A DNA stretch of 48,028 bases from assembly GCA_017434855.1 (NCBI GenBank), contig JAFRUA010000021.1, forward strand, positions 1-48,028, written 5' to 3'. This DNA is from Clostridia bacterium (lineage in GTDB: Bacteria > Bacillota > Clostridia > Oscillospirales > Acutalibacteraceae). The translations under genes were made by a program, and so were the position numbers. The notes beneath the pieces were generated by a model. It ran no database searches, was not told the DNA's origin, and saw nothing but the letters and a program-made list of their open reading frames with translations. Positions 1,990 to 5,738 of this stretch are shown in pieces. The first letter of the stretch is position 1; each line of letters opens with the position of its first letter.

Positions 1990-2044
1990 AAAAAAGTGGA
2001 GACAAAGACGCCTTCAGAGAGTCAGGAAAGACGTCTTTGCCCCC
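1990..2044 (-). terminator. Intrinsic terminator/attenuator in the asnB leader
   Basis: On the minus strand a 13-bp stem (2032-2044 with 1998-2010, containing CAAAGACG/CGTCTTTG plus GU pairs) continues into an inner CTTTC/GAAGG stem and is followed by six T (1990-1995). It lies between gdhA and the 54-residue gene, so it could end the gdhA transcript or act as a leader attenuator for asnB. Confidence 0.75.
2027..2044 (-). promoter_or_regulatory. Candidate ANTAR-type hairpin, asnB leader
   Basis: Minus-strand GGGGGC / loop AAAGAC / GTCTTT. The six-base loop has A at position 1 and G at position 4, the two bases known to define targets of ANTAR antiterminators, and its 3' arm is part of the 5' arm of the terminator at 1990-2044. 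The stem is mostly GU pairs, so this is the weakest of the four sites in the window. Confidence 0.4.
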
Positions 2045-2053
2045 GTATCAATA

Positions 2054-2118
2054 CAGACATGAGAAGGCAAATACCAAAATGGCTACGTTCAGAGAGAAGT
2101 CCTCATGTCCTGTATGAT
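2054..2118 (-). promoter_or_regulatory. Long branched leader hairpin before the asnB terminator
   Basis: Starting 9 bases after the gdhA stop, minus-strand ATCA-TACA-GACATGAG pairs with CTCATGTC-TGTA-TGAT to give about 16 bp with single-base bulges, and encloses a second small stem (TAGCCA...TGGTA). No T-run follows, so it is not itself a terminator. It matches no riboswitch I recognise. It may be an unknown aptamer or a stabilised gdhA 3' end. Confidence 0.5.
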
Positions 2119-2127
2119 CCTTGATGA

Positions 2128-3462
2128 TCAGACAATGCCTTGCGCCATCATCGCTTCCATGACCTTTTCAAAGCCCGCGATGTTTGCGCCGACGATGTAG
2201 TTGCCGTCAAAGTTGTATTTCTTTGCGGCCTCGTCAATGTTGTGATACAGATTGACCATGATGCCCTTCAGCATGGCGTCCACCTCGTCAAACGTCCAGT
2301 GCAGACGTTCGCTGTTCTGGCTCATTTCCAGCGCAGAGGTCGCCACGCCGCCGGCGTTTGCGGCCTTGGCCGGCAGGAAGAGGATGCCCTGTTCCTGCAG
2401 ATAGGCGGTCGCGTCCTCGGTCGTGGGCATGTTTGCACCCTCGGAAACGGCGGTGACGCCGTTTGCAACCAGTTGCTTTGCGTCGTCAAGGGTCAGCTCG
2501 TTCTGCGTGGCGCACGGCAGCGCGATGTCGCACGGAATGCTCCACACGCCTCTGCCGTCGTTGTACTGCGCGTTCGGTCTGCCGGCAAGATATTCCGTCA
2601 GGCGGGCGCGCTTGACCTCCTTGATCTCTTTGAGCAGCGCGATGTCGATGCCGTCGGGATCATAGATCCAGCCCGTGGAATCCGAGCAGGTCACCACCTT
2701 GGCGCCAAGCTGCTGCGCCTTTTCGATCGCATAGATCGCCACGTTGCCCGCGCCGGAAACGCAGATGGTTTTGCCGGCGATGTCGATGTTGTGGCAGCGC
2801 AGCATCTCCTGCGTGATATAGAGCAGGCCGTAGCCCGTGGCCTCGGTCCGGGCCAGCGAGCCGCCAAACGGCAAGCCCTTGCCGGTCAGAACGCCGGTGA
2901 ACTGGTTTTGCAGACGCTTGTATTGGCCGAACATATAGCCGATCTCCCGCGCGCCGGTGCCGATGTCGCCGGCCGGCACGTCGGTGTCTGCGCCGATGTG
3001 CTTGGACAGCTCGGTCATAAAGCTCTGGCAGAACGCCATGATTTCGCGGTCGCTCTTGCCCTTCGGGTCAAAGTCGGAACCGCCCTTGCCGCCGCCGATG
3101 GGCAGGCCGGTCAGGCTGTTTTTGAAAATCTGCTCAAAGCCGAGGAACTTGATGATGCCGAGGTTGACGCTCGGGTGCAGGCGCAGGCCGCCTTTATAGG
3201 GGCCGATGGCGCTGTTGAACTGAACGCGGTAGCCGGTGTTGACATGGACCTGACCGTTGTCGTCGATCCACGGCACGCGGAACTTGACCTGCCGTTCCGG
3301 GTTGACCAGCCGTTCCAGCAGCGCGTCGCGGCGGAACTGTGCTTCATGCTGGGCCACAACGGGTTCCAGTGACAGCAGCACTTCCTTGACAGCCTGATGA
3401 AATTCCGGCTCGTTCGGGTTTTCTTTGATGACCTGTGCGATGACTTCGTTGACGTATGACAT
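2128..3462 (-). CDS. gdhA: Glutamate dehydrogenase
   Basis: Interconverts 2-oxoglutarate plus ammonia and glutamate. 444 residues, the usual size of the hexameric bacterial enzyme (commonly NADP-dependent). Visible landmarks are the substrate-binding segment [16 protein letters not shown] with the catalytic lysine, [16 protein letters not shown], and the Rossmann motif [11 protein letters not shown] in the nucleotide domain. The start MSYVNEV was chosen because AAGGAGGATTCTA precedes that ATG; an upstream in-frame start would add 19 Arg-rich residues with no site. Its leader has a consensus promoter and two terminator-like hairpins, each overlapped by a candidate ANTAR hairpin. It sits in a nitrogen cluster with asnB downstream and glnA divergent upstream. 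Confidence 0.95.
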
Positions 3463-3484
3463 TAGAATCCTCCTTGCAGACAAA

Positions 3485-3776: not shown

Positions 3777-3794
3777 ATGAGCAACGGCGTTCAT
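3777..3794 (+). promoter_or_regulatory. Candidate ANTAR-type hairpin, glnA leader
   Basis: ATGAGC / loop AACGGC / GTTCAT: 6-bp stem, hexaloop with A1 and G4. GTTCAT is also the base of the following terminator, whose 3' arm carries a second ATGAGC (3820-3825). Two identical hexamers thus compete for one partner, a clear terminator/antiterminator switch. Confidence 0.65.
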
Positions 3795-3834
3795 TCGGGC
3801 AGGGTATCCCTGCGCCCGGATGAGCGTTTTCTTT
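3788..3834 (+). terminator. Attenuator in the glnA leader
   Basis: Stem CGTTCAT...ATGAGCG extended by CGGGC/GCCCG and capped by AGGG/CCCT, followed by TTTTCTTTATTT. Located between the glnA promoter and start, so constitutive transcription would end here unless antiterminated. A second 11-bp hairpin (3840-3850 with 3863-3873) follows and ends 2 bases before the AGGAGG site. Confidence 0.85.
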
Positions 3835-3889
3835 ATTTAAACAGTGCCGCAGAAAGCAGTGGGCGGCATTGTTCCAGGAGGTGCATCTT

Positions 3890-5101
3890 ATGCAGTTTTC
3901 CAAAGATGAAGTGCTGCAGTTCGTGCGGGAGGAAGATATCAAATTCATCCGTCTGGCGTTCTGCGACGTTTTCGGAAAGCAAAAGAACATTTCGATCCTT
4001 TCTGACGAGCTGGAGCGTGCGTTCACCTATGGTATCGCGTTTGACGCTTCGGCCATTGCCGGGTTCGGTGACGAGGCGCGGTCTGACCTTTTGCTCTGGC
4101 CGGAGCCGGACACGCTGGCGCTGCTGCCCTGGCGGCCGGAGCAAGGCCGCGTGGTGCGCATGTTTACACGCATCACTTATCCCGACGGCACGCCCTTTGA
4201 ATGCGACACCCGCAGTCTGCTCAAGCAGGCGATGACCGCCGCGGCGCAGCAGGGCTGTTCCTTCTTTTTCGGCGCGGAGCAGGAGTTTTATCTGTTTCAG
4301 CTGGATGAAAACGACAAGCCGACAAAGATCCCTTATGACGACGCCGGCTATATGGACATTGCGCCGGAAGACAAGGGTGAAAACGTGCGCCGCGAAATTT
4401 GCCTGACGCTGGAGCAGATGGGCATCCGCCCCGAAAGCTCTCACCACGAAGAGGGCCCCGGTCAGAACGAGATCGACTTCCGTTATGCAGACGCGCTGAC
4501 CGCCGCCGATCAGGCCATGACCTTTCAGACCGTGGTGAAAACCGTCGCGCATCGCAACGGTCTGTTTGCCGATTTTTCCGCCAAGCCCCTGCCGAACGCG
4601 CCGGGCAACGGATTCCACATCAATCTGTCTGTGCAGCCGTGCACGGACGACGGCGTTCTGCAAAAGATCATGGCGGGCGTTTTGGCGCATGCCGAGGGGA
4701 TGACGGCATTTTTAAACCCGACCGAGAATTCCTATCAGCGGCTTGGCAAAAACAAGGCGCCGGGTTACATCTCCTGGTCCGGTGAAAACCGTTCCCAGTT
4801 GATCCGCATCCCGGCGGCTGCCGATGAATACCGCCGCATGGAGCTGCGCTCGGCAGACCCGACGGCCAATCCGTACCTTGCGTTTGCGCTGCTGATCTAT
4901 GCCGCGCTGGACGGCCTGACGCAGAACCTGCAGCTGCCGCCGCCGTCAGACGTCAATCTGTTCAAAGAAAACGCCCAGTCGCTTGCACAGTACGAAAAGC
5001 TGCCGGCGTCTTTGGCGTCTGCGTGTACCGTGGCGGCGACCAGCGATTTTATCTGCGCCCATGTGCCGGCGCGGGTGCTGGATATTTATTGCAACAGATA
5101 A
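3890..5101 (+). CDS. glnA: Glutamine synthetase, type I
   Basis: Condenses glutamate and ammonia with ATP to glutamine. 403 residues, shorter than the usual 440-470 of type I enzymes; the trimming is mostly near the C-terminus. Signatures seen: beta-grasp N-terminus with IKFIRLAFCDVFGKQKN, metal-binding FFFGAEQEFY, GNGFHINLS with the active-site histidine, NPTENSYQRL, the arginine segment ENRSQLIRIP and DPTANPYLAFALLIYAALDG. No adenylylation-type tail was recognised. The start was set at MQFSKDE, preceded by AGGAGGTGCATCTT. Transcribed from a strong promoter through an attenuator, and followed 55 bases later by the ANTAR regulator gene in the same unit. Confidence 0.93.
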   Translation: MQFSKDEVLQFVREEDIKFIRLAFCDVFGKQKNISILSDELERAFTYGIAFDASAIAGFGDEARSDLLLWPEPDTLALLPWRPEQGRVVRMFTRITYPDGTPFECDTRSLLKQAMTAAAQQGCSFFFGAEQEFYLFQLDENDKPTKIPYDDAGYMDIAPEDKGENVRREICLTLEQMGIRPESSHHEEGPGQNEIDFRYADALTAADQAMTFQTVVKTVAHRNGLFADFSAKPLPNAPGNGFHINLSVQPCTDDGVLQKIMAGVLAHAEGMTAFLNPTENSYQRLGKNKAPGYISWSGENRSQLIRIPAAADEYRRMELRSADPTANPYLAFALLIYAALDGLTQNLQLPPPSDVNLFKENAQSLAQYEKLPASLASACTVAATSDFICAHVPARVLDIYCNR

Positions 5102-5156
5102 ACAAAAGGAACGTAAACAAAAGGAACGCCGAAAGACAAAGAAAGGGGGGTGCGGA

Positions 5157-5738
5157 ATGGAACTGCAAGAGCGCGTTTACAGTGTGCTCGTTGTTTCCGC
5201 GGCAGAAAAATTCAATGAAGCGCTGCTGCCGCTGCTGCCCTCCTCGGGCTTTGCGCCTGTGCGCATGGTCACCGATATCAGCGCCGCAAAACGCGCCTTT
5301 GCCGAGCGCGCCTTTGACTTTGTCATCATCAACGCGCCGCTGCCGGACGATATGGGTCTGCGCTTTGCCGTGGATGTCTGCGCCGGAAACGAAACGGTCG
5401 GTCTGCTCATGCTGCGGGAAGCGTTCTATGCCGAAGTGACCGAGCGCCTGACGCCGTATGGCGTATTCACCCTGCTCAAGCCCACCTCTGCCGGGCGGAT
5501 GGCAACGGCGCTGCAATGGATGGCGACGGCCCGCGAGCGGCTGCGCAAGACCGAAAAGAAAACACTCACCCTTCAGGAAAAGATGGAAGAGATCCGGCTG
5601 GTCAACCGCGCCAAATGGATCCTGATCGAGCACCGGGGCATGGACGAACCCCAGGCGCACCGCCTGATTGAAAAACAGGCGATGGACCGCTGCGTCACCC
5701 GCCGCGTGATTGCGCAGGAGATTATTGACGGGGGATAA
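5157..5738 (+). CDS. ANTAR-domain antitermination regulator with pseudo-receiver
   Basis: 193 residues. Residues 1-125 resemble a response-regulator receiver; the usual phospho-acceptor aspartate is replaced by Asn59 (IINAPLPDDMG) while the conserved lysine remains (Lys108, LLKP). Residues 137-190 form an ANTAR domain (LQEKMEEIRLVNRAKWILIE...VIAQEII), which in EutV and NasR binds paired RNA hairpins and prevents terminator formation. The lost aspartate suggests control by something other than phosphorylation. It follows glnA in one operon, an arrangement known in many clostridia, and the leaders of glnA, gdhA and asnB carry candidate targets. Start chosen at ATG after GGGGGGTGCGGA. Confidence 0.9.
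   Translation: MELQERVYSVLVVSAAEKFNEALLPLLPSSGFAPVRMVTDISAAKRAFAERAFDFVIINAPLPDDMGLRFAVDVCAGNETVGLLMLREAFYAEVTERLTPYGVFTLLKPTSAGRMATALQWMATARERLRKTEKKTLTLQEKMEEIRLVNRAKWILIEHRGMDEPQAHRLIEKQAMDRCVTRRVIAQEIIDGG

Follow-up and report, generated by a model that had tools for sequence, protein, structure and literature searches.

A candidate nitrogen regulon of single-hexaloop attenuators linked to the ANTAR protein encoded behind glnA in a member of the Clostridia

The glnA, gdhA and asnB locus

Genes for glutamine synthetase, glutamate dehydrogenase and asparagine synthase B lie close together in a 48,028-nucleotide (nt) stretch of DNA, hereafter the window, from a gut-type Clostridia bacterium of the family Acutalibacteraceae, order Oscillospirales (GenBank assembly GCA_017434855.1, contig JAFRUA010000021.1, positions 1 to 48,028 of the forward strand), and the possible control of these and other nitrogen genes by an ANTAR protein encoded among them is the subject considered here. 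The type I glutamine synthetase gene, glnA (3890..5101, + strand; Pfam Gln-synt_C, E = 4e-86), is the first of a pair with the ANTAR gene, which encodes a 193-residue protein (5157..5738, +; Pfam ANTAR, PF03861, 65.9 bits, cut-off 27.3). On the opposite strand are gdhA, for glutamate dehydrogenase (2128..3462, -; Pfam ELFV_dehydrog, E = 1e-90), and asnB, for asparagine synthase B (151..1734, -; NCBIfam NF006949, 603.8 bits, cut-off 499). A preliminary description, made from the letters of the window alone, had noticed in each of the three leaders an intrinsic terminator overlapping a small hairpin whose six-base loop carries A at position 1 and G at position 4 (an A1/G4 hexaloop), and had proposed that the ANTAR protein antiterminates all three genes.

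Hairpins were scored with R1, a 20-nt covariance model built from 50 sites in the window and in relatives, whose E-values are rough. Terminators were held to a strict test in which the 3′ arm of the hairpin must pair within the terminator and which 233 of 4000 random positions pass; a permissive version was discarded, since 902 of 3000 random positions passed it. The corresponding background of the promoter test is 36 of 4000.

The glnA leader is the simplest of the three. Its promoter (3741..3769, +) has a -35 box, TTGACG, at 3741-3746, a 17-bp spacer and a -10 box, TATAAT, at 3764-3769 that ends 6 nt ahead of the hairpin unit. A single hexaloop hairpin, GATGAGC-AACGGC-GTTCATT (3776..3795, +; R1 26.6 bits, E = 1.3e-4), thus stands at the predicted transcription start, and it is mutually exclusive with an intrinsic terminator (3786..3834, +; -29.4 kcal/mol) that is followed by TTTTCTTT. 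The gdhA leader holds two such units behind one promoter (3614..3643, -), with its -35 box, TTGACA, at 3638-3643 and its -10 box, TAGAAT, at 3614-3619. The hairpin of unit 1, with loop AAAGGG (3587..3606, -; R1 25.2 bits, E = 3.8e-4), again lies at the predicted start and overlaps terminator 1 (3555..3599, -; -18.1 kcal/mol plus a U-tract), while that of unit 2, with loop AACGGC (3522..3541, -; R1 31.4 bits, E = 2.6e-6), overlaps terminator 2 (3481..3538, -; -37.7 kcal/mol); both terminators pass the strict test. The ten bases that the preliminary description had found common to the glnA and gdhA sites are indeed shared, by glnA and gdhA unit 2, and read GCAACGGCGT.

The third leader, that of asnB, is less regular. 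Its hairpin, with loop AAAGAC and a weak stem rich in G-U pairs (2026..2045, -), scores 15.8 bits with R1 (E = 0.71 genome-wide), and its terminator (1990..2044, -) folds at -27.2 kcal/mol over 66 nt and at -9.0 kcal/mol in the strict test; no sigma-70 promoter upstream of this hairpin passed the promoter test. Of the window leaders this one is the weakest, and taken alone it is not significant. Among 12 relatives with the start of asnB in view, sites ahead of that gene score 20-30 bits with R1 in five (L002, L003, L005, L006 and L007). As a separate observation, an open reading frame (ORF) of 54 residues with its own ribosome site (window 1744-1908, -) sits between the asnB attenuator and asnB; it belongs to no Pfam or NCBIfam family and has no match at E <= 0.01 in 59 other genomes of the family. 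In L003, L005, L006, L008 and L032 the region ahead of asnB encodes peptides that look similar by eye and end in NTTxxD or DTTxFD.

All four loops are therefore as first noted, and a terminator overlapping the hairpin passes the strict test at each of the four units (-29.4, -18.1, -37.7 and -9.0 kcal/mol). In free folding the terminator is more stable than the hexaloop fold in 4/4 window leaders (for example, -30.1 versus -19.6 kcal/mol at glnA and -43.8 versus -24.3 kcal/mol at gdhA unit 2), so that the leaders are predicted to be off by default. None of the glnA, gdhA and asnB leaders matches an Rfam family at gathering thresholds, which was among the reasons for rejecting a riboswitch reading. 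Elsewhere the window does give a tRNA and a lysine riboswitch (18418-18591, -; 86.3 bits).

Further units in the source genome

A search of the whole source genome (2,737,272 bases in 77 contigs) with R1 returned eight matches at E < 1e-3, the next having E = 0.033. Three of the eight, the glnA site and both gdhA sites, were among the training sites of the model and so helped to build it. It should also be said that R1 scored 150 of 4146 first-look candidates in this genome, and 56 per genome in the order set described below, so that weak sites may drop out. The eight matches lie before glnA and the ANTAR gene (one), gdhA (two), glnN with an ammonium transporter/PII gene (three in tandem), a glutamate-synthase operon (one) and ddh-lysA (one), and all eight thus precede genes that handle ammonium or glutamine by Pfam and NCBIfam annotation.

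The additional sites are on other contigs. Contig 19 carries the three tandem units before glnN and the amt-PII fusion gene, as well as the one before a divergent operon of glutamate-synthase type, and contig 69 carries the unit before ddh-lysA. The transporter behind glnN is itself of some note, as its C-terminus is fused to a PII domain (L112:8164-10014, +). The enzyme encoded by ddh forms diaminopimelate using free ammonium, so a unit before ddh-lysA fits the nitrogen theme; at another locus (L064), two units lie ahead of dapF. Only one ANTAR gene, the one directly behind glnA, was found in the source genome. The preliminary proposal of an ANTAR-linked regulon of glnA, gdhA and asnB is thereby supported in its linkage, by the sole ANTAR gene found and by the co-occurrence described below, and needs revision in its extent: the predicted regulon is larger than three genes, has targets on other contigs and includes asnB as its weakest member.

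Units and ANTAR orthologues in other genomes

Comparison was extended to 60 genomes of the family and 147 of the order, each set including the source genome. ANTAR proteins of at least 48% identity were counted as orthologues, a line drawn after the matches had been seen. In the family set R1 gave 47 matches outside the source genome, none of which is a training site, the closest pair being 76% alike over 80 nt. Nine of these genomes have an ANTAR orthologue, and there 31 of 33 matches are, by eye, intergenic units before a glutamine-handling, ammonium-handling or related gene, the remaining two falling inside coding sequence. Scored by fixed rules, 28 of these 33 sites satisfy the strict terminator test and 17 satisfy that for promoters, compared with 233 and 36 of 4000 random positions; second tandem units mostly lack a promoter of their own. 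Three genomes whose ANTAR protein is more distant (38-44% identity) gave three matches, all of them leader units; in four others with one of 36-46%, none of the 4 matches is a leader unit, and in the remaining genomes 1 of 7 is (G004).

Targets in these genomes include glnN, the glutamate-synthase amidotransferase gene, gdhA, glnA, purC, pyrG and gatC. The hexaloop-terminator units before purC, pyrG and gatC occur in L160, L154 and L149 (genomes G016, G026 and G027), where the regulon would therefore include glutamine-using or nucleotide enzymes.

The association with the ANTAR protein is strong. At least two R1 matches were found in 10 of 12 orthologue genomes versus 1 of 48 others in the family (Fisher, 9e-9) and in 32 of 38 versus 2 of 109 in the order (Fisher, 6e-24), p values that overstate the case, given that both sets include the source genome, that the identity line is post hoc and that the genomes are related. 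Counting every ANTAR match at E <= 1e-40 instead gives 32/42 versus 2/105 in the order and 10/16 versus 1/44 in the family. R1 matches do occur in 29 of the 109 non-orthologue genomes of the order (one match in 27, two in 2). Within the family, those outside orthologue genomes are by eye leader units in G013, G015, G034 and G004, and are not in G022, G033, G050, G014, G035 (two matches), G002, G057, G041 and G047. One genome of the same genus, G003, forms a natural contrast pair with the source genome, having only an ANTAR protein of 22% identity, no R1 match and a gdhA leader that lacks a unit.

At 75 of 80 ANTAR loci examined, the ANTAR gene has glnA as its upstream neighbor, with the end of glnA no more than 300 nt away; in the other five the contig starts within 150 nt of the ANTAR gene. 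In L016, L019 and L039 the glnA-ANTAR pair is divergent from units before gdhA, while in the distant locus L045 it follows glutamate-synthase genes, with a single unit before the first of these. No unit was seen in many of the 80 loci, where the stretch examined may stop short of the start of the operon, and none was found in the stretch examined of L081, from the culturable relative Mediterraneibacter agrestimuris DSM 111629. Among 14 ANTAR loci of the same class beyond the order, 8 have single A1/G4 units behind a promoter.

It is conceivable that the attenuators are real and are governed by some other factor, such as a metabolite or a different RNA-binding protein, with the ANTAR neighbor a coincidence. 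This explanation draws on the fact that binding of the ANTAR protein to the leaders is a prediction, and on G004, which has a unit and no detected ANTAR protein. We consider it unlikely given that the A1/G4 hexaloop is the ANTAR signature, that no known Rfam leader is matched at gathering thresholds, that units and orthologues co-occur as described, and that the sole ANTAR gene found in the source genome resides in one of the target operons.

One hexaloop at the transcription start

The units show a consistent placement. The window, two more regions of the source genome and the 80 loci together yield 84 R1 matches at E <= 0.05, of which 48 have a sigma-70 promoter 2-20 nt upstream; so do 22 of the 47 matches in other genomes, as compared with 136 of 5000 random positions. 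In 47/48 and 18/22 of these promoter-proximal matches, respectively, the -10 box ends 5-9 nt before the unit. Transcription usually starts 6-8 nt behind the -10 box, so the stem is predicted to open with the first transcribed bases, leaving no room for an upstream recruitment hairpin (P1). Some distant genomes have the unit further from the -10 box (by about 20 nt in G002 and about 24 nt in G007), and a second hexaloop was still not found there.

Direct scans for P1 gave little. An A1/G4 hexaloop with a stem of at least 3 bp within 25 nt upstream was present at 4/84 and 1/47 matches, below the 7.0 and 4.4 obtained from shuffled flanks, and in the transcribed part upstream of the unit at 0/48 and 0/22 promoter-proximal matches. 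In 16 regions near more distant ANTAR genes, with loops preset to A1/G4 and no promoter required, candidates appeared at 1 of 18 matches (L180, position 6272), and in the 14 class-level loci at 1 of 13 A1/G4 sites, with a 3-bp stem overlapping the -10 box. The single glnA hairpin at the first transcribed bases, remarked on at the outset, is thus typical of relatives in both promoter spacing and the lack of P1 enrichment.

Where units are repeated, they are serial rather than paired. Tandem units are spaced 48-102 nt apart in 29 pairs. Those of gdhA, at a distance of 65 nt, are each followed by a terminator of their own, so that the gdhA hairpins are two serial single-hairpin attenuators and not one paired target. 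The glnA and glutamate-synthase leaders carry one hexaloop each and lack the canonical arrangement of two hairpins joined by a short linker.

The alternative is that the targets are canonical dual-hexaloop elements after all, the two gdhA hairpins being P1 and a second hairpin, P2, and glnA having an undetected P1 ahead of its presumed start. The two hairpins of the gdhA leader speak for it, as does EutV, which in vivo needs both hairpins and a limited linker, antitermination being lost when the linker grows by 20 nt (PMC8934654). Known linkers are 5-12 nt in the eut targets of Enterococcus faecalis (Ramesh 2012) and 2-25 nt in actinobacterial targets, lengths that stand against the tandem spacing and the intervening terminator seen here; with upstream A1/G4 hexaloops rarer than in shuffled flanks and none in the transcribed part, such an arrangement is improbable. 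With one start-proximal hexaloop per unit and one to three units in a row, these leaders seem to form a new variant of ANTAR target; no single-hexaloop target was found in the one open-access library searched. The covariance search of 2012 defined the ANTAR element with two stems (PMC3369931), so that single-hexaloop units would be missed by it.

Loop and stem conservation

The sites also bear the marks of an element that acts as RNA. A scan of the 80 loci accepted any six-base loop on a stem of at least 5 bp, provided that the 3′ arm formed part of a terminator and that a -10 box lay within 14 nt upstream; it found 40 hairpins, of which 40 have an A1/G4 loop, although the loop was not selected on. 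Many of the loci are orthologous, so the effective number behind this 40/40 is smaller, and the result depends on strict rules, as a relaxed class-level scan (4-bp stems, -10 box up to 40 nt away) gave other loops in 18 of 31 hairpins. The A1/G4 hexaloop overlapping a terminator, a feature of canonical ANTAR targets, is thus found at all 40 scan sites and in the window units, and the outcome that would have told against ANTAR control, namely orthologous leaders that keep the terminator and lose A1/G4, was looked for and not seen.

Forty diverse sites, chosen by hand, all keep the closing C-G pair and loop positions A1, A2 and G4, whereas the third to fifth stem pairs, counted from the loop, alternate among A-U, G-C, U-A and C-G. 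Double changes occur in four of six stem pairs, with 58 double-changed cells versus 19.5 in shuffles. The share of paired cells is inflated, because the sites were found partly via stem pairing (an early alignment required stems of at least 5 bp and the final 40 rows were hand-picked), and weight is accordingly placed on pair types, loop and placement rather than on pairing percentages. Stems that covary around a fixed loop indicate an RNA element and not a DNA operator.

A repressor operator at +1, with the terminators incidental, would account for the position of the imperfect inverted repeat at the promoter and for arms that are fairly fixed within each gene family, but is highly unlikely, since the arms co-change (ATGAGC/GTTCAT, AAAGGC/GTCTTT, GTAAAC/GTTTGC, CGGC/GCCG) around a constant A-A-N-G spacer where an operator would do the opposite, the pair beside the closing pair is G-U in 35 of 40 rows, breaking the DNA palindrome, and second and third units are located downstream of the first.

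The ANTAR protein

The predicted model of the 193-residue protein (predicted local distance difference test score, pLDDT, 89) comprises a receiver-like domain, a coiled coil and an ANTAR domain. The receiver domain scores 20.9 bits in Pfam, below the cut-off of 30.2. The top whole-chain Foldseek matches are Rv1626 (E = 1.1e-10), EutV (1.9e-8) and AmiR (5.6e-7), with root-mean-square deviations of 6-14 Å, so the orientation of the domains differs from that in these three proteins. The structure-linked list of homologues was dominated by receiver domains and barely covered the C-terminal part.

Across 67 homologues the phosphate-accepting Asp is replaced by N59 in all, and the acidic pair is absent, with S14 in 67/67 and A15 in 64/67. 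With both features gone, a protein partner is likelier than a kinase, and judging from these residues the signal more probably reaches the ANTAR protein through such a partner than through phosphorylation. There is precedent for partners of this kind: the complex of AmiR with AmiC is, by its title, structure 1qo0, and the partner protein of NasT is NasS.

On the RNA-binding side, the positions with which EutV touches G4 and plugs the loop correspond to E164, K153, H168 and M176, all invariant among the 67 homologues, by a weak pairwise alignment (E = 0.07) combined with an inferred offset of two between chain index and the numbering of the paper. The H168 position is Tyr164 in EutV and His in AmiR.

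A proposed mechanism and its reach

Taken together, we put at roughly three in four the probability that a nitrogen-assimilation regulon is run by antitermination through the glnA-linked ANTAR protein, with one hexaloop per terminator and no P1. Sequence comparison, which shows the units, their placement, the covariation, the co-occurrence with the ANTAR gene and the gene content, gives good support to the regulon and its attenuators; we infer binding, the direction of control, the sufficiency of one hexaloop and the passage of the signal through a protein partner.

Under this model, a sigma-70 promoter would start most messages of the regulon, and the first 20 nt or so could either fold as the hexaloop, with its closing C-G pair and A-A-N-G-N-N loop, or lend the loop and 3′ arm to the terminator, which would prevail by default. 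When nitrogen is short, the ANTAR protein would bind the emerging hexaloop and keep its 3′ arm out of the terminator, letting polymerase read into glnA-ANTAR, gdhA, asnB, glnN-amt/PII, the glutamate-synthase operon and ddh-lysA. A single hexaloop per terminator would be enough, with P1 not used, and leaders with one, two or three serial units would require read-through at every terminator.

Several observations weigh against this model. In the source genome, unit 2 of glnN fails the strict terminator test and lacks a U-tract, the ddh unit fails it as well, and a consensus promoter (TTGACA-TATAAT) lies downstream of the ddh-lysA unit (L113:4740-4875, -). Such a promoter would bypass the unit, and the operon may have both a basal and a nitrogen-controlled start. 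In other genomes, 5 of the 31 units lie between genes with no close promoter (G027 15976, G026 16026, G001 31190, G038 22138 and G016 3494); G004, as mentioned above, has a leader unit with no ANTAR protein found; no unit precedes the gdhA examined in G026, G054, G058 and G059, where an ANTAR protein is present; and G088, G032 and G037, which have an orthologue, gave no R1 match at 1e-3, a unit being seen in G037 by another scan. Finally, under the same weak mapping, the RNA contacts R142, R168, N173 and R175 of EutV correspond to I146, E172, D177 and C179, again invariant. It is conceivable from the sequences that changed RNA contacts may accompany a changed target.

A bolder version can be offered tentatively, as possible and no likelier than that. 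Here the units would represent a separate ANTAR mode, in which a single, first-transcribed hexaloop captures the protein unaided by a recruitment hairpin, one to three serial switches set the strictness of control, and glutamine synthetase reads the non-phosphorylatable receiver. The gene of this proposed partner, glnA, is the upstream neighbor wherever the contig allowed a look. When feedback-inhibited, the enzyme would sequester the ANTAR protein, in an arrangement that would parallel the GlnR/TnrA circuit at the level of RNA.

For Clostridia, among them many genomes from the rumen and gut, the units would provide a specific system of nitrogen control. Moreover, the reach of the predicted regulon into diaminopimelate, purine, CTP and amidotransferase genes suggests control of the whole of ammonium and glutamine use.

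Comparison with known systems

In Bacillus, GlnR and TnrA are DNA-binding regulators tied to glnA that control nitrogen genes. The system proposed here resembles them in the linkage of a regulator to glnA and to nitrogen genes, and differs in that GlnR and TnrA bind DNA and are not RNA antiterminators. GlnR is also mentioned in PMC9249791.

With AmiR of Pseudomonas aeruginosa, the protein shares a receiver-like ANTAR make-up and a His at the position of EutV Tyr164. AmiR works without phosphorylation control, is held by AmiC and serves one operon, whereas a nitrogen regulon would be served here.

NitR of Clostridium saccharobutylicum, which Stutz reportedly described in 2007, is alike in being an ANTAR antiterminator tied to nitrogen genes, and its gene presumably adjoins glnA, much as the ANTAR gene here stands directly behind glnA in the 75 loci of 80. 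According to a review, NitR is an ANTAR antiterminator that induces genes for glutamine synthetase and glutamate synthase on nitrogen limitation (PMC6316151; NitR is also mentioned in PMC4676874). ANTAR control of clostridial glnA and nitrogen genes is therefore already known (NitR, PMC6316151; Ramesh 2012). The passages on NitR in the review (PMC6316151) state no single-hexaloop or serial-unit design and no wider regulon such as are proposed here.

The present system shares with EutV and the eut leaders of E. faecalis the REC-coiled coil-ANTAR fold, the A1/G4 hexaloop, a hairpin overlapping a terminator and, as predicted here, antitermination. EutV is activated by phosphorylation, whereas here N59 replaces the phosphate-accepting Asp; EutV targets consist of P1 and P2 with a limited linker, whereas here there is one hexaloop per terminator. 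Structural work on EutV led to the conclusion that one dimer binds one hexaloop, yet antitermination needs two, and a recruitment role has been proposed for the first (PMC8934654). Natural and widespread single-hexaloop targets, the smallest leader being about 50 nt, make this question of one versus two hexaloops directly testable.

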